Positions 1 through 45,921 of a stretch of 45,921 nucleotides of DNA are shown here, piece by piece (the first letter of the stretch is position 1; each line of letters begins with the position of its first letter). This stretch comes from a virus. The notes under the pieces are model-generated. The model worked only from the letters and a program-made list of their open reading frames with translations, did not search any database and was not told the DNA's origin. The stretch is taken from IMG/VR virus record IMGVR_UViG_3300030060_001743, positions 1 to 45,921 of that record. One strand, written 5' to 3'. The position numbers and the translations under genes are program-made.

Positions 1-3000
1 GTATATCCAAAAGATGTAATTCTATCATTGATTGCTGCAGAAGTCATTAAATGGTCATCTACATCATTAAACTCTCCACCTAAATCAATATCATTTACTG
101 CGTGTCCACCAAGAGTTAAGTTACCTGCTGTAGTGAATCCAGCTGCAGTTATTGTTCCGCTCGTTGTGTCATTAGCATTATTTTTAATAAAATCATCTGG
201 TATTCTTGCTGAAGCAAGAGTTCCAGATACCACTTTACTTGCAGCAATATCATCTGCTACTGCTAAATCACCTAAACCTAAATCACTTCTTGTTTCAGAT
301 GCACTTCGTCCCTCAATAGTATTTGCATCAGTAAATTTAGCAAAATCATTGTCTACAGGGCTACCGCTTGTATCTACAGTACCAGTATTAGTTGTATAAC
401 CAAAGGCTTGTATTCTATCATTAACACCTGCAGATGTCATAATGTGAGAATCATTATCAGTAAACTCCCCAGAATCATCTACACCAGTAATTGTATTACC
501 GTCAAGAGTAAACCCACCAGTTAATGTTGATGTGCCACCAACTTTTAATGCTCCACCAGCATAAATACCCTCTTCGTGTGCAAATCCATAAGTGTCTAAA
601 TCTTCTAATTGATTTCCGTGTAAAGAATAACCACTAATAGTATTTTCTAATGTAGGCGTATGTACTGTATGGTCTGCATAATGAGCATCATCTCCCATAC
701 GAAATATTTTTACATCATAAGAGGAACTTACTGTTACATAAACTTGAAGAACTTTTTCTCCATAAGTATTATCACTATCTTGACTTAATACTCTAACACC
801 AGTTATTCTATTACTATGTCCACCACAATTTATAACAGTAAAGTTGCTATCAGCATAACTTCTTAACCAATGTATTCTAATAAATCCGTGGTCGCCAGAA
901 TCTCCATCTGTAACTAATATTTCTCCAGCTCTTCTACCACTTGTATTTGTAGCTACTGTTATCCAACCTGGACCTACTGTAGCAGAAGCACTTCCTTCTC
1001 TTCTAAAAAATCTTGTTGAATTATAATTATCTAATGTATCAGCATTAATACCCAAAGCATCTATATCAGATTTAGTTTGGTCTGCAGTAGCACTTGCCTC
1101 TATTCCGTCTAACTTACTATGGTCAGAACTTGTAAATGCAACAGATGTAGTTCCATTAATAGTAAGTGCATCAGTTTCTAATGTACCGTCTACGTCTACG
1201 TTTCCAGATATGTCAAGACTAGCTGCTGTTACAGTACCAGATGTAGTAAATCCAGCAGCAGTTATAGTACCACTTGTAGTATCATTAGCATTATTTTTTA
1301 AGAAAACATCATTTACATTAAAAGTTGTTCCGCTTAAAGATAAATTTGTACCAGCACTGTAAGTAGTGTTATCATTAGCAGTCATATCATCAACCACTAA
1401 ATCGATAGTACCGTCTCCGTCTTGGTAGGTTGCAGATACTCTAGTCTCCGTATTAGAAGAGAACATAGCTCCAACAATGTCTTGAACATTTTCTGTAGAT
1501 AGTTGCGTATTATTAGTTGTAATACTGCCACCTAAAGATACAGACGTTCCGTCAATAGTGATTGCACTTTCTGCTAGTTTGCTAATCGCAATAACAGCAT
1601 CAGAAGCAATTTCACTATCTGAAATACCTGTTACAGCAAATGTTAAATCGTATGGGTCTGCGTTACTACCATTAGATGTGTCAGTCCAATTAATATCAAT
1701 ACCAGCACCTTCTACAAACTTAACTTCTTTTCCGTGAGATATTGTTACCTCAGTACCGTCACCGTCTTCAAGTTGAAAAGTTGTAAGCTGGTTTGTATTT
1801 GTATCAGTTGTCATATCATCTACAACAAGGTCTATTGTACCGTCTCCGTCCTGATAAGACGCAGATATTCTAGTCTCGGTGTTGCTATTAAACATAGCAC
1901 CTACTATGTCTTGTACATTTTCTGTTGTTAGTTGTGTATCAGTATCTAAATCATCAACAACTAAGTCTATTGTACCGTCGCCGTCTTGGTAGGTTGCAGT
2001 AATTCTTGTTTCTGTGTTACCACTGAACATATTCCCCACTATATCTTGAACTTGCTCAGTAGATAATTGAGTATTATCATTTGCTGCAGCTATAGTAACT
2101 GAACCACCAGATTCACTTATTGTAACATTTGAACCTGCAACAAAAGCTAATGTTTCAGAAGTGGCTAATGTATTACCACCTGCAGTTACTGTTCTTACGT
2201 GGTCGTTATCTGCTGATAAATCAATAGTTCCGTCTCCGTCTTGATATACAGCTGTAATGTTTGACTCAGTGTTACCGCCGAACATAGCACCAACAATGTC
2301 TTGTACTTGTTCTGTTGAAAGCTGAGTGTCGGTAGCTGCTATAGTTACAGCTCCTCCTGATTCTGAAATACTTATATTTGACCCTGCAGTAAATGCTAGT
2401 GTTTCACTACTACCCAAAGTATTACCACCAGCTGTAACTGTTCTTACACTACCTGTTGCTGTCATATCATCTACGACTAAGTCAATAGTACCGTCACCGT
2501 CCTGATAGGTTGCAGATATACGAGTTTCCGTATTGCTATCAAACATAGCTCCCACTATATCTTGTACTTGCTCGGTGCTCAACTGAGTATTATTTGTACT
2601 AATACTACCACCTAATGAAACTGAAGTGCCGTCTATAGTAATTGCACTTTCTGCTAACTTAGATATAGCTATTAAAGCGTCAGATGCTATGTTACTATCT
2701 GAAATACCTGAAATTCTATTTACAGGAATAGTTCCTGATGTCAGTAAGGCAGCACTATGATTACCTAAACTAAAAGTAGTTCCAGATAAACTCAATCCAG
2801 TACCAGCACTAAATGTATCTTCATAAGCTAATACTTTTGCAGTTCCCCAACTTGTATCACTTTGGTCTGCTAAATAATGTCTAATTTTTTGTTCTGATTT
2901 ATCAAATGCTAAAGCATTTACATCTCCACCAGTATCGTCAGAATATGTAGATAAAACTAATAAGTCTTGATAATTACTATCAGCAGTACCAGTTAATCCA

Positions 3001-6000
3001 GCCAATGAAGTGAAGTATGCTCTAACTTGTTTTTTACCATTAAAAGTAATAGCACTGGGTTTTACATCTCTATCATCTGTTGCTGGTAAATTATCTACAA
3101 CAAAGTCTACAGTACCGTCGCCGTCTACATACGATACACTAATACCAACTTCTGTATTACCAGAAAACATACCACCAGCAATATCTTCTACTTGTTCTGT
3201 AGACAACTGTGTATTGTTTGTAGTTATACTTCCTCCCAACGAAACTGAAGTTCCGTCAATAGTTATAGCACTTTCTGCTAGTTTACTAATTGCTATAGCT
3301 GCGTCAGATGCTACATTACTATCTGATACGCCTGAAATTCTTGCAACGGGAATAGTTCCTGATGTTAATAATGAAGCACTGTGATTACCTAAATTAATAG
3401 TTACTGTATCTGTTGCACCTACAACAGTTGATATTCCTGTACCTCCAGCTATATCTAAATTATTACCGTGTGCTATTACTTGGTCAGAACCACTATCAGC
3501 AGTTAATGTAAATGTTGTTAATTGATTTGTATTATCATTAGCTGTCATATCGTCAACCACGAGGTCAATCGTACCGTCACCGTCTTGGTATTCAACAGCA
3601 ATACGTGTTTCAGTGTTTGATGTGAACATAGCACCTACTATGTCCTGCACTTGTTCAGTAGATAATTGTGTGTTATTAGTTGTTATACTACCACCAAGAG
3701 AAACTGATGTACCGTCTATTGTAATAGCACTATTAGCAAGCTTAGAGTTTCCTATAGCTGAATCAGAAGCTAAGTTAGAATCTGCTATATCTGCTAATCT
3801 AGCTACTGGCACAGTGCCTGATGTAAGTAAAGCAGCACTATGATTTGGTACACTAGTTAAAAATGGTGTGTCATTATTAAACTGACTTAATTTTATTTCT
3901 GATACAAGTTTTCTTTTTTGATTTCCGTCATCAAGATATACTAACTCATCTGCAGAACCAACAATATCATCAGTTCCGTCTGTAAGTTCACTTAGGTCTA
4001 CATCTATAGTTGGTGTAGCTCCTTCTCCACTATTGTTTTGTAAATCTATTAGAGCACCTGCAGTTAATGTTGCAACATAATTACCAGTAGTGTGTGTAGT
4101 TAAATCAACACTATTATTAGCAATAGTTGTTGCAATACTTACATTACCACTACCGTTAAATGTAGTAGCAGTTGTACCTGTTACATCTCCTGTTAAACTT
4201 ATATCTCTACCTGTTGCTAGTGTTGTTGCTGTACTAGCATTACCAGTTACAGCACCTTCTAAATTTGCAACCAGTGTAGCCACTGCATATCCAGTACCAC
4301 CTGTATTTACAGTTGCTGAAGGTTCTGCTTGTAAATCTTTAAATAGTTTAAATTTTCCACTATCATTAGCATCTCTAAATAAACCTGCATATAAATCTTG
4401 TGAACCTGATGTATCATACAATCCATAAAAACCAATGTCTACAGAATCTGCACTATTATTATCTTTTGCTAATTTTATTAAGGGGTCTTGTACAACAAGA
4501 TTTTCTGTAGTTATTGTAACTAAATCACCATTTACAGTTAAGTCTCCAGCAATAGTAACATCATCTGGTAAACCAATAGTAAATGCAGTTCCTTCTCCTG
4601 CACTACCTGTTACTGCTATTTCATTAGATGTTCCTGCTACAGAAGCTGCATAGTTACCAACAGTCATTGAACCTAGTGTAATAAAATTATCTAATGATGT
4701 TTGACCTGTACCACCATTAGCTATTGGTAATGTTCCAGTAACATCTGCTGCAAGGTCTATTGCATTTCTAGTAATTGTTTGTCCACTAATTGTAATATAG
4801 TCTAGTGAGCCACTCAAAGAAACATTGGTACTATTATCTGTACCAGCTGGGTCTACACCTATCGTAGTTCTTACTGCTGTTGCATTTGCATCATCTACAA
4901 TACTTTTACCAAAAGTTGATATAGTAGTATTAGCAGGTAAAACAAATGTTTTTAAATCTGCGTCTACTTCACTATCCATAAGAGCACCTGCTGCAGTTAC
5001 GTTATCTGTATCTGTTACGTCTGCACTTGCTTCTATTGCATTTAATTTAGAGTGGTCATCATCTGTAAATACATTAGAATCAGAAGCTGCTTCTACAGCA
5101 GTTCTTATTTCTGCATTTGTTTGGTCTGCTGTTGCACTTGCTTCTATATTGTCAAGTTTATTTTTCAGTGTTGTTGTAAAATTATTATCTGTTTGACTAC
5201 TTACAGCAAAATCTAATGTTCCGTCTCCGTCTTCATAAGTTACAGCAATACCTGATTCTGTATTACTTGATACCATAGCTCCTACAATATCTTGTACTTC
5301 TTCACTAGATAGTTGAGTATTAGCTGTCATATCATCAACAACTAAATCAATAGTTCCGTCACCGTCCTCGTATGTAGCACTAATTCTTGTTTCTGTGTTG
5401 CTACTAAACATAGCTCCGACTATGTCTTGTACTTCTTCAGCAGAAAGTTGTGTATTGGTGTCGGCAGTCATATCGTCGACTACTAAGTCAATAGTCCCGT
5501 CCCCGTCTTGATAAGTAGCTGATATTCTAGTTTCTGTGTTAGAGCTAAACATAGCTCCTACAATGTCTTGCACTGCTTCAGTGCTTAAATTTGTATCTGT
5601 TACTGATTCTGTAGCTGTAGCAATACCAGTCACGTGTCCATTAGAATCTAATGTAATATCTTGTATATAAGTTCTACCACTGTTATCACTTGAACTAGCA
5701 GCTGATATACTAGGGTGAGCTGTCATATCATCTACGACTAAATCTATTGTTCCGTCTGAATCTTCATAGCTTACACTAATTCTAGTCTCAGTATTACTTG
5801 TAAACATAGCACCTACAATATCCTGAACTTGTTCAGAAGTTAATGTAGCTTCAATTTTAGAATCTAATTGTGTTTGTATATTAGATGTTACTCCGTCAAG
5901 GTAGTCAAATTCTGTAGCAGTTACGCCTGTAGCGTGTAAAGTATCTAAGTAATTTAATTCTACAACACTACCAGTATATCCGTCTAATACATTTAATTCT

Positions 6001-6209
6001 GCTGCAGTAGAAGTAATAGCAGTACCTGCAAGCTGTAATGTACTTGTACCTGTAATATTAACAGCTGCTGAACTAAGTTGTAATACACTAGCTGTACCTT
6101 CTCCGTCTTCAACATTTGTTAAACTCCCCGTGATTCCACTGTTACTGTTTGATACTTGTAATAAATCTTTATATGTATCTGATACTTTTTTACTTGTTAA
6201 TGTTGCCAT
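1..6209 (-). CDS. Giant modular tail fibre, N-terminal part (runs off left edge)
   Basis: This is the receptor-binding fibre of the virion. The frame is open from the ATG at 6209 (MATLTSKKVS) to base 1 with no stop, at least 2,069 residues. It holds LDG repeats near the N-terminus (ELNVLDG, ELNYLDT, EFDYLDG) and about 11 copies of a unit around QDIVGAMFSSNTETRISA followed by Y(Q/E)DGDGTIDLVVDDM. Next come Thr/Gly/Asn-rich spacers, a TENLVVQDPLIKLAKD block often seen in marine phage fibres, and twice a module ending NDRI(Q/T)(A/S)FGYT. GAGG lies 5 nt before the ATG, 2 nt after the previous stop. The C-terminal chaperone at 45,563-45,921 almost certainly belongs to the same gene. Confidence 0.9.
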   Translation of the reverse strand, partial: MATLTSKKVSDTYKDLLQVSNSNSGITGSLTNVEDGEGTASVLQLSSAAVNITGTSTLQLAGTAITSTAAELNVLDGYTGSVVELNYLDTLHATGVTATEFDYLDGVTSNIQTQLDSKIEATLTSEQVQDIVGAMFTSNTETRISVSYEDSDGTIDLVVDDMTAHPSISAASSSDNSGRTYIQDITLDSNGHVTGIATATESVTDTNLSTEAVQDIVGAMFSSNTETRISATYQDGDGTIDLVVDDMTADTNTQLSAEEVQDIVGAMFSSNTETRISATYEDGDGTIDLVVDDMTANTQLSSEEVQDIVGAMVSSNTESGIAVTYEDGDGTLDFAVSSQTDNNFTTTLKNKLDNIEASATADQTNAEIRTAVEAASDSNVFTDDDHSKLNAIEASADVTDTDNVTAAGALMDSEVDADLKTFVLPANTTISTFGKSIVDDANATAVRTTIGVDPAGTDNSTNVSLSGSLDYITISGQTITRNAIDLAADVTGTLPIANGGTGQTSLDNFITLGSMTVGNYAASVAGTSNEIAVTGSAGEGTAFTIGLPDDVTIAGDLTVNGDLVTITTENLVVQDPLIKLAKDNNSADSVDIGFYGLYDTSGSQDLYAGLFRDANDSGKFKLFKDLQAEPSATVNTGGTGYAVATLVANLEGAVTGNASTATTLATGRDISLTGDVTGTTATTFNGSGNVSIATTIANNSVDLTTHTTGNYVATLTAGALIDLQNNSGEGATPTIDVDLSELTDGTDDIVGSADELVYLDDGNQKRKLVSEIKLSQFNNDTPFLTSVPNHSAALLTSGTVPVARLADIADSNLASDSAIGNSKLANSAITIDGTSVSLGGSITTNNTQLSTEQVQDIVGAMFTSNTETRIAVEYQDGDGTIDLVVDDMTANDNTNQLTTFTLTADSGSDQVIAHGNNLDIAGGTGISTVVGATDTVTINLGNHSASLLTSGTIPVARISGVSDSNVASDAAIAISKLAESAITIDGTSVSLGGSITTNNTQLSTEQVEDIAGGMFSGNTEVGISVSYVDGDGTVDFVVDNLPATDDRDVKPSAITFNGKKQVRAYFTSLAGLTGTADSNYQDLLVLSTYSDDTGGDVNALAFDKSEQKIRHYLADQSDTSWGTAKVLAYEDTFSAGTGLSLSGTTFSLGNHSAALLTSGTIPVNRISGISDSNIASDALIAISKLAESAITIDGTSVSLGGSISTNNTQLSTEQVQDIVGAMFDSNTETRISATYQDGDGTIDLVVDDMTATGSVRTVTAGGNTLGSSETLAFTAGSNISISESGGAVTIAATDTQLSTEQVQDIVGAMFGGNTESNITAVYQDGDGTIDLSADNDHVRTVTAGGNTLATSETLAFVAGSNVTISESGGSVTIAAANDNTQLSTEQVQDIVGNMFSGNTETRITATYQDGDGTIDLVVDDLDTDTQLTTENVQDIVGAMFNSNTETRISASYQDGDGTIDLVVDDMTTDTNTNQLTTFQLEDGDGTEVTISHGKEVKFVEGAGIDINWTDTSNGSNADPYDLTFAVTGISDSEIASDAVIAISKLAESAITIDGTSVSLGGSITTNNTQLSTENVQDIVGAMFSSNTETRVSATYQDGDGTIDLVVDDMTANDNTTYSAGTNLSLSGTTFNVNDVFLKNNANDTTSGTITAAGFTTSGTVTAASLDISGNVDVDGTLETDALTINGTTSVAFTSSDHSKLDGIEASATADQTKSDIDALGINADTLDNYNSTRFFRREGSASATVGPGWITVATNTSGRRAGEILVTDGDSGDHGFIRIHWLRSYADSNFTVINCGGHSNRITGVRVLSQDSDNTYGEKVLQVYVTVSSSYDVKIFRMGDDAHYADHTVHTPTLENTISGYSLHGNQLEDLDTYGFAHEEGIYAGGALKVGGTSTLTGGFTLDGNTITGVDDSGEFTDNDSHIMTSAGVNDRIQAFGYTTNTGTVDTSGSPVDNDFAKFTDANTIEGRSASETRSDLGLGDLAVADDIAASKVVSGTLASARIPDDFIKNNANDTTSGTITAAGFTTAGNLTLGGHAVNDIDLGGEFNDVDDHLMTSAAINDRITSFGY

Positions 6210-17885: not shown

Positions 17886-17929
17886 ATAACTATACGGAGT
17901 TTACTAGCTAGTATAGTTAGTATAGTTAT
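17886..17929. repeat. 10-bp inverted repeat flanking a repeated half-site
   Basis: ATAACTATAC (17886-17895) and its perfect reverse complement GTATAGTTAT (17920-17929). A further GTATAGTTA copy lies at 17911-17919. The element lies just downstream of the rightward -10 box, where a repressor would block transcription. Confidence 0.6.
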
Positions 17930-17937
17930 CTGACCCC

Positions 17938-17963
17938 CTAAATTAAGCAATATCAAGACTTAG
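17938..17963. repeat. 26-bp element, copy 1
   Basis: Begins CTAAATTAAG and ends AGACTTAG. It matches the element at 18084-18109 at 20 of 26 positions. Each copy starts CTAA and ends TTAG, making a weak dyad. Likely a binding site for a phage protein. Confidence 0.45.
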
Positions 17964-18083
17964 AACCTTGTCAGACCCCCACAAACTGAAAAAATAACGC
18001 AAGTATGTGTGTTTCTCTTTTTTTACGTGCAATACCCCCGCCCGTGCCAAATTACGTTAGGAAATCTAGATTGACCTTTTGCT

Positions 18084-18109
18084 CTAAGTTAAGTTATTGC
18101 TAGACTTAG
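18084..18109. repeat. 26-bp element, copy 2
   Basis: Begins CTAAGTTAAG and ends AGACTTAG. In this copy CTAAGT/ACTTAG is a perfect 6-bp inverted repeat. The spacing of 146 bp between copies could allow looping by one bound factor. Confidence 0.45.
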
Positions 18110-18129
18110 CTCGGTGCTCAGTAGACCCG

Positions 18130-18143
18130 ACCGACCAGTCGGT
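18130..18143. promoter_or_regulatory. 14-bp dyad, possible operator
   Basis: ACCGAC-CA-GTCGGT is a perfect inverted repeat with a 2-bp centre. It is too tight for a good RNA hairpin and has no T run directly after it, so a protein-binding site is the better reading. Confidence 0.4.
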
Positions 18144-18270
18144 TTATATATGATTTGAGCACTTTGCCTGACCAGTTCCGTACATTTGAGCACCCTCGCA
18201 TAAGCTTGCCAAAATTGCTACTAAGCCCTAGCTTTACCGACGGCAAAGAAATCTTTAGCAAAATTAGTGC

Positions 18271-18300
18271 TTGACAACTTGGAAAGGCTCGCCGTAATAT
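18271..18300 (+). promoter_or_regulatory. Promoter of the acidic-protein / AAA+ cassette
   Basis: TTGACA (18271-18276), 18 nt, TAATAT (18295-18300). Transcription would begin near 18307, about 90 nt upstream of the ATG at 18396. This is the promoter closest to the sigma-70 consensus in the early region. Confidence 0.65.
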
Positions 18301-18395
18301 ATACTGCTCACGAGGGACAACCCGCCGAGACCCCGACTGAGACCTTGACAATAAAGAAAACAACTAAATATCGGCGTTTCCGAGGAGGAAAAACA

Positions 18396-18881: not shown

Positions 18882-18888
18882 AACAACC

Positions 18889-18906
18889 GCCGACTTTATC
18901 GTCGGC
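18889..18906 (+). promoter_or_regulatory. Hairpin just before the AAA+ gene's ribosome site
   Basis: GCCGAC-TTTATC-GTCGGC is a perfect 6-bp GC-rich stem ending 1-2 nt before AAAGGAG. There is no T run, so it is not a terminator. It could set the ratio of acidic protein to ATPase by mRNA processing or by limiting ribosome access. Confidence 0.45.
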
Positions 18907-18921
18907 AAAGGAGATGAAATT

Positions 18922-25190: not shown

Positions 25191-25195
25191 AGTAG

Positions 25196-25674: not shown

Positions 25675-25697
25675 AAAAAAAAGCAGGAGGAAAAATT

Positions 25698-26594: not shown

Positions 26595-26636
26595 TGATAG
26601 ATTAACGTAATAATTTTAATAAAATAAGGATATGAT

Positions 26637-27284: not shown

Positions 27285-27810
27285 CGATAATATGTTAAAT
27301 GATATGTTCGGAGAGGATAGTTGGTTTGAGCCTAAAGAAAAGAAACCGCAATCTACATTAGCAGAAGGTAAATATAAAGCTAAGTGTACTGGACTAAATG
27401 TAAAACAAGATAAGGAAATTCAAGGTCAGTTTCTTGCAGATATTTATGAGCCCGAGTTTACTATTGAAGGAACTCAAGTAAAGCATAAAGGTTTGTTTAG
27501 ATTTAAAAAACCCGACCCTTCAGTGTACCCACACTTACAAGCAGATATGGGTAGTAATCAAGGGTACTATTCCTTTTTAAGTTTATGTAATCTTTCTAAA
27601 GAAAAAGACGGAAAGATAATGCTACCGCCATTGACATTAGATATGATTAATGGTATGGAGTTTGAGGTGGAAGTAGTCGTAGAGAAATGGGTAGGACGTG
27701 AAGGTAATGATATGTCTACACCTAGAGTATCTAGAGTACTACAAAAGTTATCAACAAGTAATCAACAAAATGTGGATAACTCAGTGGAAGAGGACGACTT
27801 ACCCTTTTAA
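27277..27810 (+). CDS. Single-stranded DNA-binding protein, 177 aa
   Basis: An OB-like core (KYKAKCTGLNVKQDKEIQGQ; GMEFEVEVVVEKWVGREG) and an acidic C-terminal tip, EEDDLPF, which is the SSB tail that recruits replication proteins. It resembles phage SSB-like DUF669 proteins. It overlaps the ERF gene. It protects single strands for helicase and annealase. Confidence 0.8.
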   Translation: MVDDNMLNDMFGEDSWFEPKEKKPQSTLAEGKYKAKCTGLNVKQDKEIQGQFLADIYEPEFTIEGTQVKHKGLFRFKKPDPSVYPHLQADMGSNQGYYSFLSLCNLSKEKDGKIMLPPLTLDMINGMEFEVEVVVEKWVGREGNDMSTPRVSRVLQKLSTSNQQNVDNSVEEDDLPF

Positions 27811-27835
27811 AATTTGTGTCGTCGTATAAAAGGCG

Positions 27836-27873
27836 AGCCCTACATTAAACTCTTCCTTCTCTTGAGTAGGGCT
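27836..27873 (+). terminator. Hairpin after SSB, possible partial terminator
   Basis: AGCCCTAC (27836-27843) and GTAGGGCT (27866-27873) form a perfect 8-bp stem with a 22-nt loop; only three T follow. It may cap the exonuclease-ERF-SSB message or cause weak termination. Confidence 0.45.
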
Positions 27874-27899
27874 TTGCCACAAACAACATAGGAGAATTT

Positions 27900-28073
27900 A
27901 TGAGTAGAGAAGAATTTGCATTAAAATATGGTAGAGGTTGGTGGATATTCCAAGGAACACCAATCAGACATAACAGAAGAAAGACTTGGATAGAACAATT
28001 TAACACAGAAGGAGAGAGCACGTGTCGGCAAAAAATAAAAGACGTGGAACGACGTATGAAAGAAAATGCGTAG
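27900..28073 (+). CDS. Small basic protein, 57 aa
   Basis: AGGAG 5 nt before the ATG. Sequence with GRGWWIFQGTPIRHNRRKTW then a charged C-terminus. The last 52 nt overlap the resolvase gene in another frame. The aromatic/arginine-rich start suggests nucleic acid binding. Function is unknown. Confidence 0.6.
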   Translation: MSREEFALKYGRGWWIFQGTPIRHNRRKTWIEQFNTEGESTCRQKIKDVERRMKENA

Positions 28074-28354
28074 AGAGAGCTAAAGGATTTGAATTAAAAG
28101 CAGAAAGAACTTGGGGGTCAGACGGCAGAAGTAGAGGCTTACATCAAGAAGTAGATATGGTTATCGAAGATAATGTTTATGTACAATGTAAGAAAAGAAA
28201 ACGAATAGCTGAGCACCTAAAACCTATACCAGAACTACACGTACAATTTGTAGGAGAAGATAGGGGAGAAGACTTAGCAATAATGAGACAAGATTATTTC
28301 TTGTTATTGCTATCATTAATAAAGAAACACTTGAAGGAGTTAAATAATGAGTGA
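28022..28354 (+). CDS. Hjc-like Holliday junction resolvase, 110 aa, GTG start
   Basis: Cuts four-way junctions before packaging. Motifs of the PD-(D/E)XK resolvase family: RRGTTYERKCVERAKG (Arg and Glu), a basic loop WGSDGRSRG, HQEVDMVIED (Asp) and VYVQCKKRKR (Gln-x-Lys). AGGAG is 7 nt before the GTG, which overlaps the 57-aa gene. The size matches archaeal and phage Hjc-type enzymes. Confidence 0.75.
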   Translation: MSAKNKRRGTTYERKCVERAKGFELKAERTWGSDGRSRGLHQEVDMVIEDNVYVQCKKRKRIAEHLKPIPELHVQFVGEDRGEDLAIMRQDYFLLLLSLIKKHLKELNNE

Positions 28355-28625
28355 TAAAAAAGAAAAAAAGAAAACTGATATTGTTGAACAAAACAAATCA
28401 GTAATGGTTAATATTACAACTGATGAAGGTAAATCTTTACAATTAGATTTGTCTAAATCTAGTGATATTGTTAGAGGTTTGTATACTCGAGCACTTGAAC
28501 TAAAAAGAGAGCAAGTAAGATTAGAAACTAGCTTAGTAGAAAACAATATACTAATCAACGACTACATAAACAGAATAGTAGATATTAACGAGGAGAAGAA
28601 AGATGACGGAGAAAGTAAAGAGTAA
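28347..28625 (+). CDS. Hypothetical coiled-coil protein, 92 aa
   Basis: Overlaps the resolvase end by 8 nt, with AAGGAG upstream. Charged N- and C-termini flank a strand (VMVNITTDEGKSLQLDL) and a coiled coil (LYTRALELKREQVRLETSLV). Unknown early protein. Confidence 0.7.
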   Translation: MSDKKEKKKTDIVEQNKSVMVNITTDEGKSLQLDLSKSSDIVRGLYTRALELKREQVRLETSLVENNILINDYINRIVDINEEKKDDGESKE

Positions 28626-28821
28626 GTCAGAATACTTTAAAGAGTGTTATGGAGTTATGGAAGAGACAATCGACCAACAAAATAAATACTTTAATGAACT
28701 CTCAAAACAAGCTACTATGGCAGTAGCAGAAAGAGATATGGCTTTGTCCACGTTAAAAAAGATGAAGGGCTCATTGATAACCTTCCAAAGACTTATAGAT
28801 AAATATAAGGAGGAGGAATAA
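28603..28821 (+). CDS. Hypothetical coiled-coil protein, 72 aa
   Basis: Starts 23 nt before the upstream stop (GAGGAG upstream of the ATG). Mostly one long helix (ETIDQQNKYFNELSKQATMA; ALSTLKKMKGSLITFQRLI). It is coupled to the HTH gene by ATG overlap at 28821. Unknown. Confidence 0.7.
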   Translation: MTEKVKSKSEYFKECYGVMEETIDQQNKYFNELSKQATMAVAERDMALSTLKKMKGSLITFQRLIDKYKEEE

Positions 28822-29036
28822 TGAATCAATCTCAAAATGATATGATATTAGTTGCACTAAAAAACGGAGATAGAATAACGCCGTTGAGTGCTCTAGAAAA
28901 GTTTGGCTGCTTCAGATTAAGTGCTCGTATATGGGACTTAAGAAATGAAGGACACCCAATAAAGACTAGACATATATCAACCCCTCAAGGGAAAGTTGTA
29001 GCTGAATATAGTTATGAGAGTGCTCAAAATGGATAA
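28821..29036 (+). CDS. Helix-turn-helix domain protein, 71 aa
   Basis: The pattern ILVALKNGDRITPLSALEKF followed by GCFRLSARIWDLRNEGHPIK is that of a small phage winged-helix family (HTH of the pfam14090 type). GGAGGAGG precedes the ATG. It could control early transcription, for example at the two dyad promoters, or act in replication; neither is proven. Confidence 0.75.
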   Translation: MNQSQNDMILVALKNGDRITPLSALEKFGCFRLSARIWDLRNEGHPIKTRHISTPQGKVVAEYSYESAQNG

Positions 29037-29253
29037 GATAAGTGTAATTAAAAAGAACGGCTTACCATTAAACGAGCAAGATAAAAAAAACTTTCGTAGT
29101 AGATTAGCTATAGTATGCTTTCAATTAGGCTTTGTTATAGTAGAAGAAGCCGAAGTAATAGATGATGTCGGGCAAAAGTATGACCCGACATTAACTAAAG
29201 AAGACTTACAAATATCAAGGGTAAATCCTAATTGTGAAGTATGCGACGACTAA
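29014..29253 (+). CDS. Hypothetical protein, 79 aa
   Basis: Two starts are possible, ATG at 29014 or ATG at 29029 (MDKISVIKKNG, 74 aa); neither has a clear ribosome site and both overlap the HTH gene. The middle is alpha/beta (FRSRLAIVCFQLGFVIVEEA), with CEVCDD at the C-terminus. Unknown. Confidence 0.6.
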   Translation: MRVLKMDKISVIKKNGLPLNEQDKKNFRSRLAIVCFQLGFVIVEEAEVIDDVGQKYDPTLTKEDLQISRVNPNCEVCDD

Positions 29254-29572
29254 AGTAATAAAGCTTGTCGAAAAAGCTTTATTGTTTATATACGAAAGTG
29301 TATATTCTAAAGAGACGCTAAGGGCTTATTTCAAAGACGACGACTGGTTTGACGACGAGTATATTGAAAGCGAAAGAAGAAAGAAAAACGAAGTAGCTTA
29401 CAATAACAAATCAAAATTTCAACCTTACAGATGTCCTTCGTGTAATAAGCCTTGGCGTTTCTACACTATGCCAAAAGGTAAAGTACCTTTAAGAGAATTT
29501 TTAGGAAAGAGAGTACCAATGGAGGAAAAGAAATGTCCGAAAGAATTGAAGTGCCAAAAAAGAAAGAAGTAA
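29234..29572 (+). CDS. Zinc-ribbon-like protein, 112 aa
   Basis: Probable GTG start at 29234, within the end of the previous gene; the start is uncertain for lack of a ribosome site. An acidic patch (FKDDDWFDDEYIESE) precedes RCPSCNKPWRFY and KKCPKELKCQ, which together offer four Cys for zinc. The C-terminus is Lys-rich. Function is unknown. Confidence 0.6.
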   Translation: MKYATTKVIKLVEKALLFIYESVYSKETLRAYFKDDDWFDDEYIESERRKKNEVAYNNKSKFQPYRCPSCNKPWRFYTMPKGKVPLREFLGKRVPMEEKKCPKELKCQKRKK

Positions 29573-29724
29573 TTTATTATTGTCAGTCTTGTAATAATAA
29601 AATTCCAATAAAAGACCAGTCTTATTCTCTCTCATATTACTTTGCAAAAGAGTTTGATGAATACTATTGTAAGAAATGTGCTCAAGAGAGACACGAAGTT
29701 TTATTAGATAGGCACGTAGATTAA
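29533..29724 (+). CDS. Zinc-ribbon protein, 63 aa
   Basis: GGAGG 7 nt before the ATG. CQSC and CKKC separated by 27 residues form a likely zinc site. It overlaps the upstream gene by 40 nt and the next by 1 nt (TAATG). It is one of three successive small Cys proteins before the helicase. Confidence 0.65.
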   Translation: MSERIEVPKKKEVIYYCQSCNNKIPIKDQSYSLSYYFAKEFDEYYCKKCAQERHEVLLDRHVD

Positions 29725-30068
29725 TGCGTTGTCCCGCTTGTGGTTGGTCAAACACATTAAAAAATTACCCAAGAAAAAATAAAGAATTATTATCTAAATT
29801 AGATGAAGAAGTTATTGAACATTTACGTAGAAATTTCTTAACTTCTTTAAACGATTTGACGTCGTACACACTACTCAAAGCTTGTTCAGATACAACCACC
29901 GAAGTTATAAATCATAGTGTTAATATATGGGAACGTAAACACTTAGCAGATAAAGGATATGACGTTTATTATTTTATAGGAATATTAAGAAACGAAGGAA
30001 AGAAAATTGAAGAAAAAAAATCAAGAGAACAAAAAAGACTTGACCGACTTCCACCAACCATTACTTGA
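29724..30068 (+). CDS. Hypothetical protein upstream of the helicase, 114 aa
   Basis: Starts RCPACGW, a single CxxC, then helices (LDEEVIEHLRRNFLTSLNDL; NIWERKHLADKGYDVYYFIG) and a Lys/Arg-rich end. Its place directly before dnaB is where many phages keep a helicase loader or initiator, but no loader motif or AAA+ domain is present. The role is open. Confidence 0.65.
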   Translation: MRCPACGWSNTLKNYPRKNKELLSKLDEEVIEHLRRNFLTSLNDLTSYTLLKACSDTTTEVINHSVNIWERKHLADKGYDVYYFIGILRNEGKKIEEKKSREQKRLDRLPPTIT

Positions 30069-30084
30069 GAAAGAAACAACCAAG

Positions 30085-31410
30085 ATGTATAGTGGTGTTA
30101 GTGAGCGTGAAGTGCTCGGAATACTACTTAAAGACGACAAGTTAATTAATTCAGTATTAAAATATATACCAACAAGTAAAGTATTTTATCACGAAAAACA
30201 CGAGATAATTTGGAAGGGTATGTATGCTTTATATAAACAAAATAAAGCTATAGATTTAGCTACGTTAACTAATTACCTATCAGAAAAAGGTTATAAGATG
30301 ACATACTATTTAAGTGGTATAGAAATTATAAGCACCGCTAGATTGGAAGAACACGCTAAGACTATTTATAGTTTGTTTATAAGAAGACAATTACACGAAA
30401 AGATTTTAAAGTTTGAGGCTAGATTACGTGAGCAAACTTCTTATAAAGATGTTAGTAGTGATATAAATTACTTACAAAACATTGGAGAAAAGTTTAGTAA
30501 TGTATTAGATATTAATGATAAGAGTATTACAAGCTTAACTGATGACGCAGAAGAAGCTATATTCGCTAGTAAAAACTTAACTCAAACTGGTATTGAACGT
30601 ATAGATAAAGCAATAGTTGGTATGACACGAGGAGAAATATCTATTATAGCAGGTAGACCTGGTAATGGTAAGAGCACCTTGGCTTTAAATCTTGTAAAGA
30701 ATATGGTTCTTGACGGCAAAAAAGTAATGCTTGTGTCAAGAGAAATGCCAAGTGTAGAGATTGTAAAAAAACTTATTGCTATGCACACAAAAGTAAAGAA
30801 CAAAGATATGCGTGGTAATGCAAGTGCTCACAAAGAAGAGATTAAAAAAGGTTTAGAGTTTGTAAAAAAACATTACAAATCGCTTTATTTATTTGATAAT
30901 TTAAGAACGCTAGACGAAGCTTTAAATGAAGCTAAAAAGATTAGACCCGACGTAATCATTGATGACCACGTTGGTTTCATAGAATTTCCACATTACGACA
31001 AGCAAGATGTTAGACATAGAATCGCCGAGATAACTCGTAGATATAAATGGTTAGCTAAAGAAATAGATTGTGGTGTAATACTCGTATCACAACTTAATCG
31101 TAATATCGAGCATAGAGTAGACAAGATTCCAAGGCTCAGTGATTTAGCTGAGTCTGGAAATCTTGAACAAGACGCAGAAATAGTTATCTTTTGTTATTAT
31201 CCTTTTGTCTATGAATATGACCAAGCCGAGCACGGAGAGTTTGGTACTAAAATAATTGTAGCAAAAAATAGATATGGAACAACTTGTAAGTTCGACTTAG
31301 GTTATGACGGAGATAGTGCACTGATTTGCAATTCACCTGAAGAGGCTCGAGCACATAGAGAGAATAGAAAACTGAGCACGCAGGAATACGCTAATGTTTT
31401 ATTTGACTAG
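30085..31410 (+). CDS. DnaB-type replicative helicase, 441 aa
   Basis: Unwinds the fork ahead of the (host) polymerase. The N-terminal domain begins SEREVLGILLKDDKLINSVL. The RecA-like motor has Walker A AGRPGNGKST, LVSREMP (H1a), IIDDHVGFI (Walker B), LVSQLNR and SDLAESGNLEQDAEIVIF, then an arginine-finger region KNRYGTT. The ATG at 30085 gives the usual DnaB length; a TTG at 30007 with AAGGA upstream would add 26 Lys-rich residues. The stop shares CTAG with the convergent gene. Confidence 0.9.
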   Translation: MYSGVSEREVLGILLKDDKLINSVLKYIPTSKVFYHEKHEIIWKGMYALYKQNKAIDLATLTNYLSEKGYKMTYYLSGIEIISTARLEEHAKTIYSLFIRRQLHEKILKFEARLREQTSYKDVSSDINYLQNIGEKFSNVLDINDKSITSLTDDAEEAIFASKNLTQTGIERIDKAIVGMTRGEISIIAGRPGNGKSTLALNLVKNMVLDGKKVMLVSREMPSVEIVKKLIAMHTKVKNKDMRGNASAHKEEIKKGLEFVKKHYKSLYLFDNLRTLDEALNEAKKIRPDVIIDDHVGFIEFPHYDKQDVRHRIAEITRRYKWLAKEIDCGVILVSQLNRNIEHRVDKIPRLSDLAESGNLEQDAEIVIFCYYPFVYEYDQAEHGEFGTKIIVAKNRYGTTCKFDLGYDGDSALICNSPEEARAHRENRKLSTQEYANVLFD

Positions 31411-34400
31411 TTGCTTCCTCTATATTGCATTTCTTGTTGGTAGTTTGGGTAGTCTTTTGTGCGGAACTCTTGCTTAGAATATAACATAACATCTCTAAGT
31501 CTGTTTCTATAAAAAGTTTTTAAGTTCATAAAATCACGTAGTTCTTCTTGTCTACTATCATACATACCTTTATACCAAAGGTCGTAAGTAGAATTTTCTT
31601 TACCACCTCTTTCGGTGCTCAAAAGTTGTGGGTCAAGCTTTTTAATATACTCGTCTACTTGTTCTTGTGCTGTTCTAACAGCTCGTATAGCTGTCATATT
31701 GTTTCTATTTTTTACTTGAAGTTGCATAGCTTTTGCATTGATTGCAGCTCTATATGCTCTTGAAAATTCCTCTACCGAAGCACCACCATAAAAAGCGTCT
31801 CTTAAATATTGATAATGTAAGTTCGCTCTATATCCTGAGCCTTCGCTTGGAATATAGTATTTAGCGTCTTGGTCTTTCTGTCCAGTGAGCACCTGAAAGT
31901 TTCTTTGGTCTTTTACAAACTTACGGAAAATTTTTAATTCATCTGTTTGTTTTACACCTTTAATTACTTTGTATGCTTGACTACTTAAAGCTGTTGTCTG
32001 AGATAATGTTTCATATAAGTTTCTTTTTTCTGCAGCAACATCATATTTAATATCATCAGTATTAAAGAAGTAATCATCTAACTCATCTATATTCATTAAA
32101 CCACTAGCAACAAACACTGCAGCTTGAGCTACATTTCCAGCAAATCTACTGACTGCAAACTGGTCTGCAATAGCTACATCATCTTTGAAGAAAGATTGTG
32201 CTACGTCATTTAATATAGAGAAAGCACCTAAAAATTCTGCATAATCTAAATAGTCCCATATTCTTTCAGACATTGTTTGATATTGATTAGGTTCTGTTTG
32301 ATAAGCTGTATGTACTATGTTGGCATAAGCATAACCACCTACCCCAGCACCTACCGTATATCTTAATAAAGGTAATATGTTTCCTTCTCTAGCGGGTTTT
32401 ACAATATTATTATATGTATTATCAGTCACGATTGTAGCAATTCTAGTAAACAAAGTAAAAGGTTTTACATACTCTTTACCAAATACTCTAGGTAAAAAAG
32501 CAGCGTCAGTAATACCTTGTGTAGTTCCGTGAGCACGTACTAACAAACGGTTTCTTTCTAAGTCTGTAAAGTTTCCACGCTCTACTGCTTTCACATAATC
32601 ATCTCCCATACCGAGAGTGTCTCTTAATAATCTTGCTGCTTCTGATTTTTTATTGGCAGATGCTCTAGGATTTCTTAATACTTTAAGTGCTCGAGCACTT
32701 GCAAAATCACCAGCAGCTACTGCTAACATACGGTTTACTTTTTCTGTGCTCGACATACCTTTCAATAATAACTTACGCCATTGACTAGCATTTTCTATTT
32801 GTAAAGTTGTATCTAAAAGTTTCATACCAGAAGCTTCTCCACCTATCTCAGAAAACTTAGCACTATAAAGCTTTCTAAAGTTTTTGTTAAAGGTAGTATT
32901 AACTATTGCTCTAGTAAAATCTGTTAAAGATGTAGTAGATATAGTTTGTATAGCACCAAACATAAAGTTTCTAAGAGGAGATAAGAAACCACTTAAACCA
33001 AAAGTAGCTGCATATCCAGTCAAGTCTGCTAGTGCTTGTGTTCCAGCACCTCTTGCTTCCGTTCTTATAATATTATCTAAGTCATCTTGGAATAATTTAA
33101 TAAGTTGAGAGCTACTTACTTCTTGTCCTCTACCTCTTGTTTGTAAATCTATTTCATTGATGAGTTTCATAATATCATCACTATATTCTTTCTGTCCTTT
33201 TGTACTACGCATATTACCGTACTTATAAATACCGTCTCCAAAGTGACTACTCAAAGTAATAATGTTAGATATTCTACCACCATATCTATCCATTGAATCT
33301 ACATAGTTAGTAGAATATGATTCTATTCTTTTAGCAATCCTTTGAGCACCTATGGAATCACCTACTTTTAAATTGTAGTCTGCTTTATTTCTAACACTAA
33401 TTGTTTTACCTTGGTCATCTAAAAAGTATACTGGCTCTAAAGTAAATACTCTAGAATATTGTACACCATAGATACCATTTTTTTCTGTATTGTTTGCAAA
33501 TCTTTTATACAATGCTAATAGTTCTTCATCACTAGCTCCTGGATTTTGTACACGTAGAGCCTGAAAAACCTTTTGATATAGGTTGTCATTTTTATTAAAG
33601 ACATCTAATAGTTCATCACTTACAACCAAAGGTACAAAGTTCTTTTCTTTTCTTATTGGTATTCTTGTAAGCTTACCGTTGACATAAACAGTTTCTTTTA
33701 CATTAGCTAGTTTAGCTAGTTTATACACTTCGTCCATAAGTTGGTTGTGTAATGTTTTTACTTCTTCAAACCTTTGTAAGTATGAATCTGAATACTTAGT
33801 AAGTTTATATCCAAATCTTTTAGGGTCTATAATACCAAACATAATATCATTGAACTCATCTGTAGATACGTTTAAACCTTTTCTAAGTTTTTCTTGAGCG
33901 TGTCTCATACGATAAAACTTACCTTTAATTAATTCTGAGTCAGCTACTTTATCTAATAACTTTTGTGCAATCTTTCTAAATACTGGTGCTCCAGTTTTTT
34001 CATATAAAAATTCATAGGTTCTATGTATAGATAATCCAGCTCTAGCTGTTAAAAACTCACTTAATTTTAAATCATTTTTTAAGAAGTCATCAATAAAATT
34101 AACACCAGTTACCCCGTCTACTGATTGGAAAGTAAGTATACCTCTTAATTGTTTTGCTTGTTGTTCTGATAATTGATTTGTTCTTTGTGTGTTGTATAGA
34201 TAATCTTTAATTAATCTATGTTTACCACCACCTTTACTATCTCTTAGTCCTAGCTGTGTTTCTAGTTCTCTTAGTTCTGTATGTGCTCCTAAGTGAGATT
34301 CTTTTTTCTTTACTTTTTTTGTTTGACCTCTAAGTTTATTTATCTCGGTCTCTCCTAAAATTCTTTTAGATGTTTTTGTTTTCCTTGTTACTGTACCAAA

Positions 34401-36293
34401 AGCTATATCATTACCTACCGCTACTCTTCTACCATTATCTAATTCAACTATGTATACATCTCCTTTAAATTTGCTAGGACTTGCGGGTACAAATATACCG
34501 CTACCAGTGTTTGAGTTTCTATGATATGCTCCACGACCTGCTCCTTTAGGAGATAGAATAGTACCACCACCAGTAACTTTTTTTCTTCTACCAATAATTT
34601 TTTTACCTTGTTCTACTGTTTGACCAGTCAAAGAACTACCAGCAATTTTTGAGTGTAGTACTACTTCTGCTATTTCTAATGGTTGCTTTTTGTTGTTTCT
34701 TACAAGTTCATATACACCTTTATTAGTATATATTTGTTCTTGACCTGTAAGTTTACCTAATTCTATAGCGTCAGTTTCTTTTAAGTTCTTGACAACAAAA
34801 GAGTTTTCATATCCTGATGAACCACTTTTCTGTATTCTTAAAATATCTTTTTCATTATATCCTCTAGCAATAATATCTCTTACTAATGCTTCGTCTCTAG
34901 TTTCTCCTGGTAATATTTTTAATGCACTTTTAAATGGTGCTCGGTCAGCACTTATAATTCCCCACTTACCTTGTTCCCAAAATTTAATAATATCTTTATC
35001 TGTTTTAAAAAATGTTTTGAAACCTTTACCATTAGGCAAAGCGTTTTGTAATGTTCTTACAACACTGTCAGGTGTGCTTCTGTATGTTTCTAAAAATTTA
35101 TCTAAGGTGCTCACAACTCCTTTGTTTCTTGGGTCTTTAGCGTTAGGTGCATATACATCATACTTAATTAATAACTTTCCTTTCTCTTGATATATACCTA
35201 AACCTTTTGCACTAAAGCCTGTCTTACTTTTGAAGTCTATACCCTCGAAAGCAGTTGGTATTCTACCCATTTCATCTGCAGCTTTTCTTGTAGCAAAAGC
35301 AGCTAAAGCATCAGCAACTTTCTTTTCTTGTATTTCTGGTACGTGTGCTCGAAGTGCTCTACTTACATTGTTGATAGTGCTCTTGTATTCACTTCCACCT
35401 GAAAGTCCGTTGAAACCAGCAACAAATAAACCACTAACTAATCTTTCTCCAAAGCTTGCGTCTGAACTATTAAGACCAGTAGATAACATACCAGCACCAA
35501 ATGATTCTACACTACCTACGGTATATCTTTTCTTACTAAATAAACTAGCATTTTCTACTGCTTTTTTATATGCTCCTCTTGCATATAGAGCACCACCAGC
35601 CACATCAAACGGTAGTGACTTTAAATTTTGTACAATATCAAATTGCTCACCTGATTGTATTTGTTCTGTTGTACTTCCTATCTGACCATAAGCAGCAAAT
35701 ATAGCTGCTTCTTTTTTTGTTCTTTGACCTCTTAACATTTTAAGAGCAGCATTTGGGTCTTGTGATGCTTTTCTAAAAAAACTATTTACCGCACTACTTT
35801 GAGTTACTCTAGAATTAAAGAAACCGTTTGTATGACCATAACCTATTTTAGCTATAGCTTCTGCTTTCTTTCCTTGATTCCATAAATCTCCTGATGTCTT
35901 AACTGCTTTGTAAGCTGCACTACCTTTTTGTAGAGTTGAACCTGAAGTTATTGCTATTGAAGCTGTACCACCTGTAAAGTAGTTTAATAATCCGTGTACT
36001 GCAAACATACCTAATACATTACCACTAGCTCTTGCAACTCTTTGACCAGTAGTATCTAAATCTAAAATTCCAACGGTAGGTTCTGTGAATAATACACCAG
36101 TTTCTACACCTTCTAAGAAGGCTTGTTTTGCTGTGTATGGTGCTCGTATTTGCTCGAAATCAGCCTTAGGTGCTCGTAAATCAAACGTAGCTGAAGGTGT
36201 GGTTGAAGTGCTCAAACTAGGCAGCTGGAACGTAGCTGTAGTTTTCTTTTTATCTAAACCACTCAAATCAAAAGTTGCAGTTTGTTGTGGCAT
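31407..36293 (-). CDS. Giant internal virion / ejection protein, 1,628 aa
   Basis: Probably ejected with the DNA or forming the inner core, as the long proteins of podoviruses do. The N-terminus has three short repeats (TATFDLSGLD, TATFQLPSLS, SATFDLRAP). Gly/Ala-rich hydrophobic helices (GNVLGMFAVHGLLNYFTGG; LLRYTVGAGVGGYAYANIV) near both ends could cross the host membrane, and the middle is basic and helical. There is no clear transglycosylase or protease motif. It lies last in the leftward operon and carries about 18 GAGCAC words. Confidence 0.7.
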   Translation of the reverse strand: MPQQTATFDLSGLDKKKTTATFQLPSLSTSTTPSATFDLRAPKADFEQIRAPYTAKQAFLEGVETGVLFTEPTVGILDLDTTGQRVARASGNVLGMFAVHGLLNYFTGGTASIAITSGSTLQKGSAAYKAVKTSGDLWNQGKKAEAIAKIGYGHTNGFFNSRVTQSSAVNSFFRKASQDPNAALKMLRGQRTKKEAAIFAAYGQIGSTTEQIQSGEQFDIVQNLKSLPFDVAGGALYARGAYKKAVENASLFSKKRYTVGSVESFGAGMLSTGLNSSDASFGERLVSGLFVAGFNGLSGGSEYKSTINNVSRALRAHVPEIQEKKVADALAAFATRKAADEMGRIPTAFEGIDFKSKTGFSAKGLGIYQEKGKLLIKYDVYAPNAKDPRNKGVVSTLDKFLETYRSTPDSVVRTLQNALPNGKGFKTFFKTDKDIIKFWEQGKWGIISADRAPFKSALKILPGETRDEALVRDIIARGYNEKDILRIQKSGSSGYENSFVVKNLKETDAIELGKLTGQEQIYTNKGVYELVRNNKKQPLEIAEVVLHSKIAGSSLTGQTVEQGKKIIGRRKKVTGGGTILSPKGAGRGAYHRNSNTGSGIFVPASPSKFKGDVYIVELDNGRRVAVGNDIAFGTVTRKTKTSKRILGETEINKLRGQTKKVKKKESHLGAHTELRELETQLGLRDSKGGGKHRLIKDYLYNTQRTNQLSEQQAKQLRGILTFQSVDGVTGVNFIDDFLKNDLKLSEFLTARAGLSIHRTYEFLYEKTGAPVFRKIAQKLLDKVADSELIKGKFYRMRHAQEKLRKGLNVSTDEFNDIMFGIIDPKRFGYKLTKYSDSYLQRFEEVKTLHNQLMDEVYKLAKLANVKETVYVNGKLTRIPIRKEKNFVPLVVSDELLDVFNKNDNLYQKVFQALRVQNPGASDEELLALYKRFANNTEKNGIYGVQYSRVFTLEPVYFLDDQGKTISVRNKADYNLKVGDSIGAQRIAKRIESYSTNYVDSMDRYGGRISNIITLSSHFGDGIYKYGNMRSTKGQKEYSDDIMKLINEIDLQTRGRGQEVSSSQLIKLFQDDLDNIIRTEARGAGTQALADLTGYAATFGLSGFLSPLRNFMFGAIQTISTTSLTDFTRAIVNTTFNKNFRKLYSAKFSEIGGEASGMKLLDTTLQIENASQWRKLLLKGMSSTEKVNRMLAVAAGDFASARALKVLRNPRASANKKSEAARLLRDTLGMGDDYVKAVERGNFTDLERNRLLVRAHGTTQGITDAAFLPRVFGKEYVKPFTLFTRIATIVTDNTYNNIVKPAREGNILPLLRYTVGAGVGGYAYANIVHTAYQTEPNQYQTMSERIWDYLDYAEFLGAFSILNDVAQSFFKDDVAIADQFAVSRFAGNVAQAAVFVASGLMNIDELDDYFFNTDDIKYDVAAEKRNLYETLSQTTALSSQAYKVIKGVKQTDELKIFRKFVKDQRNFQVLTGQKDQDAKYYIPSEGSGYRANLHYQYLRDAFYGGASVEEFSRAYRAAINAKAMQLQVKNRNNMTAIRAVRTAQEQVDEYIKKLDPQLLSTERGGKENSTYDLWYKGMYDSRQEELRDFMNLKTFYRNRLRDVMLYSKQEFRTKDYPNYQQEMQYRGSN

Positions 36294-36301
36294 AGTTATC
36301 C

Positions 36302-37492
36302 TTATTTAACAGTTGTACCTGGTAATGCGTTGTAAAATTCTATTGGTGTGGCGTATCCTGTTATGTTCATATCTATCAATCCTGTAAAGTCTGGCTGTCC
36401 ATTAGGTAATATTCGAGCACCTTTTAAATTACCTCTCTTATCTTCAAAGATAAAAGTAGAATCATTTTCAGTAATACCTGCGTCTGGTGCGGCTACTCCT
36501 GAAACTATTTTACCATAATTATATAATGATGAATATTCATCACTTTGTAATAATTGTAATGTTGATACTCCGTCAGTCATAGAGTTTTTAGCAGATACTG
36601 GTATTTGACTGAATATAGTATCACGTATAAAACTCATCATTGTATTAACATCTTGAGAACTAAAACCATAACTGTCCATAAGTTTATCAGTAACGTTTAT
36701 ACCTGTACCTAAGAAGTCTAACATTGACTTAGATAAATCTCTTTGACCTTGTAAGTTACCTCCACCAGTAGCTATGGTATCGTTAAATATTTTCTTAGCC
36801 ATTTCAAAGTCTCCAGCTTGCATAGCTTGGTCTGACTTTTGTGCAGCTGATTGGAATACATTTATAGGTACTCCAAAGTATTCTGCAAACATTGGTGCAT
36901 TATCATATAAAGCATCTACAGACCTAGACTGCATTAGTTTCTCTACTCCGTCATCATAAATCTGTTTAGTGTTTTTATACAAAGGAGTATCTTGTTTGAT
37001 TCCAACTAAAGAATTACCTAAATCTCCTAGAGCTGTAGCTTTTGCTTCATCAGTATCTGCATTAGTAAAGTTAGTAACTATGTCTGATATGTTAGATGTT
37101 CTAACTTTTTCTATTCGTTGAGTACCTACTAAATTATCTAACAACATATTACCTTCAGAAGTTTGCATATTTACACCACTATAATCAGGTGTAACATCAG
37201 TGAAAGAAGAAGAATTAGCAAAGTCTGCTAAACCTTCTAATAAAAATTTATCTTCAGTTAATTTTAATTTTCTTTCTTCCATATCCATAAGAGCATTTTG
37301 TCTAGTTGATTGCTCTTTTCTTATTTCGTCTGCTTTCTGCTCTTGTCTAGCATTGTTGACACTTTGTGTCATAAAGTTAAATACTTGTTGCGTAAGAAGA
37401 TTAGGGTCAATATCACTTAAGTTATATTTACCAGCTAACTCTCCCATAAACGCACCAAAATTGTCTATTGACTTAGGTATATACTTAGCCAT
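36302..37492 (-). CDS. Internal virion protein candidate, 396 aa
   Basis: Largely helical and Gln/Asn/Asp-rich (FMTQSVNNARQEQKADEIRK; MQAGDFEMAKKIFNDTIA), with SDIVTNFTNADTDEAKATAL. It lies between two other putative internal proteins, 8 nt and 2 nt from its neighbours. No enzyme motif is visible. Role by position only. Confidence 0.65.
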   Translation of the reverse strand: MAKYIPKSIDNFGAFMGELAGKYNLSDIDPNLLTQQVFNFMTQSVNNARQEQKADEIRKEQSTRQNALMDMEERKLKLTEDKFLLEGLADFANSSSFTDVTPDYSGVNMQTSEGNMLLDNLVGTQRIEKVRTSNISDIVTNFTNADTDEAKATALGDLGNSLVGIKQDTPLYKNTKQIYDDGVEKLMQSRSVDALYDNAPMFAEYFGVPINVFQSAAQKSDQAMQAGDFEMAKKIFNDTIATGGGNLQGQRDLSKSMLDFLGTGINVTDKLMDSYGFSSQDVNTMMSFIRDTIFSQIPVSAKNSMTDGVSTLQLLQSDEYSSLYNYGKIVSGVAAPDAGITENDSTFIFEDKRGNLKGARILPNGQPDFTGLIDMNITGYATPIEFYNALPGTTVK

Positions 37493-45566: not shown

Positions 45567-45921
45567 TTTTTTAACTCTTCTATCTCTTCTTTAAGTTCTT
45601 TGATTGCTTCGATTAACAATGGTACAAGCTTTTCATATTTAACAGCTTTGTACCCAGTGTCTCTTGTTTGTACTACTTCTGGTAATACTTCTTCAATCTC
45701 TTGTGCTATAACACCTACGTCGTGTCCTTCGTTACCGTGTATAGTTTTCTTCTCTTCTTTTGTTAATGGTTTCCAATCAAACTCTACACCACTAATCTTA
45801 GAAACTTTATCAAGAGCATTATCAAGTGGTTTAATATTTTCTTTTAATCTTTTATCTGATGATGAAAATGCAACAATGTCATTACCAGCATCTATTCTAC
45901 CGTCAGTTCCGTTGCAACTAA
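45563..45921 (-). CDS. Tail fibre C-terminus, S74 intramolecular chaperone (runs off right edge)
   Basis: The frame enters from the right edge and reads NGTDGRIDAGNDIVAFSSSD, KRLKENIKPLDNALDKV, GHDVGVIAQEIEEVLPEVV and a coiled-coil end (LLIEAIKELKEEIEELKK). AFSSSDKRLKENI is the self-cleavage motif of peptidase S74 chaperones, which help fibre trimers fold and are then released. It must be the end of the fibre starting at 6209. In frame it needs a number of missing bases equal to 2 modulo 3 at the contig junction. Confidence 0.88.
   Translation of the reverse strand, partial: SCNGTDGRIDAGNDIVAFSSSDKRLKENIKPLDNALDKVSKISGVEFDWKPLTKEEKKTIHGNEGHDVGVIAQEIEEVLPEVVQTRDTGYKAVKYEKLVPLLIEAIKELKEEIEELKK

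Follow-up and report, generated by a model that had tools for sequence, protein, structure and literature searches.

GAGCAC, a selected DNA word in a family of uncultured phages, and an AAA_5/DUF7192 gene pair as its possible reader

Introduction

What maintains the hexanucleotide GAGCAC at high density in the genome of an uncultured phage, and which protein could be reading it? Only a few words that are distributed over phage genomes and read by proteins are known, such as stoperators and Chi. The virus record studied here belongs to a podovirus-like phage of 46,373 bases, and the window, i.e. the whole stretch of DNA that was analysed, covers its positions 1–45,921. It encodes a P22-type portal, a SU10-type capsid, a terminase, a DnaB-like helicase, an exonuclease and an Erf annealing protein. 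No near match to the first 20 kb was found among cultured phages, and the closest terminase shares about 25% identity with that of the window. Judging from its gene style and its relatives, the phage is probably marine. A search for the host revealed no terminase relative among 84,980 genomes, and one match to the ATPase discussed below lies in a Flavobacteriales MAG contig without the GAGCAC word.

The window contains no GATC, CATG, CCGG, GGCC, GCGC, CATTC, CATCC, CATCG, CAGAG, CATATG, GATATC, GGTACC or CAATTG, while up to about 100 copies of each absent palindrome would be expected. The absence of these restriction-type words suggests a host with many restriction systems and heavy restriction pressure.

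Results

GAGCAC is strongly over-represented in the window

When both strands of the window (1–45921) were counted exactly, 90 sites were found (42 GAGCAC and 48 GTGCTC), compared to 9.5 expected from mononucleotide composition. A sequence-only reading of the same DNA had reported about 88 copies against about 10, a ninefold excess without strand bias. The numbers and the lack of bias were confirmed; the ninefold figure holds relative to base composition, but four- to sixfold is fairer. A second-order Markov model predicts 14.7 sites and the maximal-order model 41.7 (z 10.2; the runner-up hexamer has z 5.3). Under each model GAGCAC is the most extreme enriched hexamer, and none of its one-mismatch neighbours has a comparable excess over the Markov model.

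Synonymous codons were then shuffled gene by gene, with the protein and the local composition held fixed. This gave 18.8±3.4 sites within genes, compared to the 76 observed (z 17); the highest of 200 shuffles reached 29. The word uses reading frames 0, 1 and 2 on both strands (15, 12 and 15 copies of GAGCAC; 9, 23 and 2 of GTGCTC), as had been claimed. Outside the ORF set (4.65 kb) 14 of the 90 copies are found, at 18.1, 21.5, 24.9–25.1, 28.0, 28.9–29.0 and 29.7 kb. Of the non-coding copies reported earlier, those at 18.1 and 21.5 kb were recovered, whereas the sites at 25.65 kb lie just within an ORF with a GTG start.

A dense block of 69 sites, one per 268 bp, extends over positions 17900–36450, in agreement with the density peak described before (17.9–36.4 kb). 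It comprises the early and replication genes and a late gene of 1628 aa, which is also rich in GAGCAC. In the early block on the plus strand, 26 of 50 sites are on the plus strand. Four non-coding sites (21461+, 21512−, 21553+ and 21567+) are clustered at 21461–21572, directly behind the AAA/DUF7192 gene pair, and three (18114−, 18157+ and 18188+) at 18114–18193, in the stretch that separates the late block from the divergent early block. The fibre gene (3–6209) harbours three copies, at 2575, 4052 and 4982, and not the single one counted earlier.

The word differs among related phages

Of 80 terminase relatives, 16 contigs were read whole or nearly so. Group A consists of nine phages (the window, G002, G003, G010, G011, G014, G015, G016 and G018), and group B of seven sister phages (G005–G009, G012 and G013). 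Group C is more distant, and 36 of its contigs were counted. As in the window, where it is the top hexamer, GAGCAC is abundant across group A, with 571 copies seen and 111 expected (5.1-fold) and mild flanking preferences (T-T-GAGCAC-Y-T). The terminases of group B are 80–81% identical to that of the window, yet GAGCAC is not in excess there (87 seen, 74 expected). These phages repeat CGTTTAA within a 20-bp palindrome, GAgagCGTTTAAACGctcTC, centred around CGTTTAAACG. The sequence CGTTTAAA occurs 42–52 times per group B contig, compared to about two expected; G012 has only 22 copies. About 50 copies of the palindrome per genome are spread over the early region of group B, including G013, in phages without the AAA/DUF7192 genes.

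Group C favours CTAGCA (1108 seen, 262 expected), GCTAGC (1162, 216) and GTGCTA (524, 177). GTGCTA is preferred by G027 and G029, and CTAGCA/GCTAGC by the other members. GAGCAC is depleted in this group (15 compared to 106 expected), which thus avoids the word despite carrying the AAA/DUF7192 pair together with another word. A further phage, G025, has 52 copies of GCTAAC where eight are expected. Codon shuffling supported these words as well, with z values of 8.7 for GTTAGC in G025, 8.2 for TGCTAG in G026, and 6.6 and 9.8 for GTGCTA in G027 and G029, respectively.

The other group A phages likewise concentrate GAGCAC on early genes. GAGCAC in group A and the palindrome in group B both crowd the early genes, and few copies lie in the genes for portal, capsid and fibre. 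Between group A phages with 75–81% DNA identity, the fraction of GAGCAC sites retained was 0.39–0.66, compared to 0.19–0.34 for control hexamers of equal GC content. Sites are thus kept about twice as often as controls, which indicates that the word is under purifying selection while roughly half of the sites turn over. The earlier claim of selection on the DNA word itself is therefore upheld by the codon shuffles, the use of all frames, the non-coding copies and this doubled conservation. This family of uncultured phages keeps 50–90 sites in each genome, with several unrelated versions of the word, apparently in step with a gene pair.

Sites facing each other are depleted

Over eight genomes, GAGCAC and GTGCTC occur in a ratio of 291:260, i.e. 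without overall bias in orientation. At short range, however, sites that face each other are depleted. Over five diverged genomes, facing pairs (GAGCAC followed by GTGCTC) were found 0, 6 and 18 times within 20, 60 and 150 bp, respectively, while 7.4, 19.3 and 38.3 were expected. Among 89 abundant words GAGCAC has the most negative balance of facing to back-to-back pairs; two words deviate more, in the opposite direction. In groups C and G025 the depletion was not clearly repeated. It hints at an asymmetric complex that sits on the 3′ side of GAGCAC.

An AAA_5/DUF7192 gene pair tracks the word in three phage groups

The first gene of the pair (18922–20472, plus strand) encodes a MoxR/NorQ-like AAA_5 ATPase of 516 aa (Pfam PF07728, 3.8e-19; phrog_249), a candidate reader or motor. 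It consists of a folded helical N-terminal part, a disordered linker and the AAA+ domain. The second gene (20469–21437, plus strand) encodes a DUF7192 protein of 322 aa (PF23822, 4.2e-9), also a candidate reader, of which the C-terminal two-thirds appear VWA-like. A basic stretch (CRRKRR) is conserved in alignments of this protein, as DCRRKRR in group A and SCKRKR in group C. No paper on DUF7192 was found in the literature searched. The GC content of the 4-kb stretch around the two genes (18500–22500) is about 46%, compared to 35.5% window-wide, which may reflect recent acquisition or local selection.

Both partners were modelled. The ATPase model (pLDDT 76) has NorQ as its top Foldseek match (2e-9), followed by CbbQ and MCM helicases. 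For the DUF7192 model (pLDDT 74) the best match is the VWA domain of NorD (Z 6.6; Foldseek E 0.019), followed by the MIDAS domain of Rea1 (Z 5.7), neither of which is safe alone. NorQ- and NorD-like folds are thus predicted for the two partners, each model independently best matching its own half of the NorQ–NorD complex. PDB sequence searches with either profile gave no convincing match, and no DNA-binding domain was identified in the pair.

In a comparison of gene content, the pair was present in nine of nine group A phages and in none of the seven of group B, and no other genes had that pattern. An ATPase profile search for distant phages also found it in G025, and in every group C contig that extends past the ATPase gene DUF7192 lies behind it. 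When profiles of the window genes of at least 50 aa were screened, only those of the pair and of a small putative nuclease were common to all of G025, G026, G027 and G029. The diverged pairs go with similar-looking words of their own: GCTAAC in G025, GTGCTA in G027 and G029, and CTAGCA/GCTAGC in the other group C phages. The pair therefore tracks AGC-containing words in three phage groups.

When the core-gene tree was rooted with group C, group B was nested within group A, as sister to the pair-bearing G011 (95/97). A monophyletic group A was not rejected by the AU test (p 0.188), and in the unrooted tree A and B are the two sides of one branch. The switch between A and B is a single event, and the nested position of B looks as if pair and word had been lost together.

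Pair phages also exist in other lineages (G022, G024, G030, G032, Faith1, Mithridates and RHph_X2_24), and no strong hexamer was found in these seven. Modest excesses of TTAGC-type words were seen in Faith1 and Mithridates (CTTAGC, 82 seen and 37 expected; CTTTAGC, 26 and 6), the best in Faith1 being 2–2.9-fold. The pair is therefore not sufficient for a clear word. Single-protein scans for further relatives of the pair returned only the queries themselves. The word-bearing phages are moreover a related set that all carry the small nuclease, so that shared lineage confounds the link between pair and word.

Other genes considered as readers

The small nuclease gene (28022–28354, plus strand) encodes a putative PD-(D/E)XK enzyme, based on an EVD...QCK motif; it has no Pfam match. 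All contigs of sufficient length from groups A, B, C and G025 contain it, and it is missing from the pair phages without a word. It was rejected as reader of the word, since it is also found in group B and its tree, although weakly supported, mixes GAGCAC and palindrome phages, which makes it unlikely that the nuclease sets the specificity. A winged-helix (HTH_39) protein of 71 aa (28821–29036), whose conservation among many phages of A and B is 82–91%, was rejected because it is shared by phages with different words. Neither does the switch between Erf and Sak recombinases follow the word, as some group A phages have the Sak type of group B.

Discussion

The sequence-only reading had offered three interpretations: a Chi-like site, a protective motif, or the site of a phage DNA-binding protein. 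Our comparison favours the last, because sister phages have different words and the change goes along with a gene pair of the phages; the Chi-like reading was weakened, and a protective motif found no direct support. We tentatively propose, at close to even odds, that GAGCAC is recognised by a DNA-binding machine which the phage itself encodes, with the AAA_5/DUF7192 pair as the most likely candidate; the pair would then bind the word. A more specific version is possible and somewhat less probable: a MoxR–VWA machine may read an asymmetric hexamer that recurs every 250–300 bp in the early half of the phage's own genome, and word and machine would change in concert from one phage lineage to the next. 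GAGCAC would be read by DUF7192 or by the folded N-terminal part of the ATPase, and the ATPase ring would be recruited there to act with polarity on the early half. More speculatively, it could organise the early DNA, clear host proteins from it, or silence early transcription later in infection.

An AAA_5 ATPase adjoining a predicted VWA-like partner resembles NorQ–NorD and other MoxR AAA+/VWA pairs. However, the known pairs are mainly chaperones that remodel proteins, or they insert metals, which counts against our proposal. To our knowledge, no sequence-guided action on DNA has been described for MoxR/VWA pairs.

The strongest competitor, which we nevertheless consider rather doubtful, is that GAGCAC is a genome-wide, stoperator-like operator of another phage regulator or a nucleoid-type protein, and that the pair merely co-travels. 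In cluster A mycobacteriophages, repressors such as those of L5 and TipsytheTRex bind more than 20 asymmetric 13-bp sites, which lie in promoters and short intergenic gaps and are oriented with transcription (PMC9283540). Like stoperators, which are read by a phage protein (PMC9283540), GAGCAC is asymmetric, spread across the phage genome and clade-specific, and with 90 sites in the window it, too, is repeated more than 20 times. The dense, clade-specific sites over early genes in both A and B fit an operator, as does the palindrome of group B, which is of a perfect-dimer type and occurs where the pair is missing; there the regulator would have been swapped for one whose dimer binds a palindrome. 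The existence of pair phages without a word also fits. In contrast to stoperators, there are 50–90 hexamers per genome, 76 of the 90 window sites lie inside predicted genes, and their orientation does not follow transcription, as seen in the even split within the early block. The sole recognisable DNA binder is the winged-helix protein, and most small genes have no assignment; that protein, however, is 82–91% conserved between phages with different words. Besides the pair and the nuclease, no profile of a window gene is shared by all those phages of A, C and G025 that bear a word.

A host-determined Chi-like site, by which the word would protect the phage DNA from host RecBCD/AddAB or direct recombination by it, seems improbable. 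Lambdoid phages enrich Chi between the replication genes and the terminase (PMC3784561), a region similar to the one enriched here, and GAGCAC is short and asymmetric like Chi. Chi, however, is set by the host nuclease. GAGCAC shows no strand bias over the eight genomes and varies between sister phages: group B lacks it and has a palindrome in its place, although it avoids much the same sites as group A (GATC, CCGG, GGCC, GCGC, CAATTG, GATATC and GGTACC), so that the two groups may share a host. Group C shuns GAGCAC and favours the palindrome GCTAGC. In addition, the phages encode their own exonuclease and Erf or Sak annealing proteins.

Even less probable is a modification or restriction motif, in which the word would carry methylation or another mark, or would label self against a host or phage system. 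The extreme restriction pressure on the window (zero GATC, CATG, CCGG, GGCC and GCGC) would suit it, and the avoidance of GAGCAC in group C suggests that something may act on the word in some hosts. However, restriction targets are normally avoided, and GAGCAC is enriched 5.1-fold in group A. The scan of window proteins, which included some of the small genes, revealed no recognisable methyltransferase, and for the AAA gene PADLOC returned nothing beyond weak matches to generic ATPases. Finally, an artefact of composition, codons or repeats, to which the uneven GC content around the pair might point, is refuted by the codon shuffles, the Markov neighbour test and the recurrence of the enrichment in nine genomes.

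Members of the same two families adjoin or lie near each other in cultured phages, as in Faith1 of Mycobacterium (gp136/gp135), Mithridates of Acinetobacter and RHph_X2_24 of Rhizobium. There the ATPase bears only a homology-based label ('porphyrin biosynthesis'), and its partner is a DUF. LeBron gp128, an AAA-ATPase from the mycobacteriophage cluster of Faith1 that was matched to MCM6, had a toxicity score of 3 upon overexpression (PMC13148394), and it is probably the orthologue of Faith1 gp136. If the link between pair and word is real, the word offers direct access to what this widespread and unexplained pair of phage genes does, and word counts would serve to trace the DNA targets of uncharacterised phage proteins. 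A sequence-guided AAA+ DNA machine, if true, would be a previously undescribed class.

Two further enrichments were observed. Part of group A (G014, G015 and G010) has a second strong set of words around ACGCG, either dispersed or locally repeated, with 21 copies of CGCGTTC in G014 compared to 0.6 expected. In G004, a group-B-like contig without the early region, AGTTCC is in excess (AGGAACT, 24 compared to 4.8), which is perhaps another word or a local repeat.
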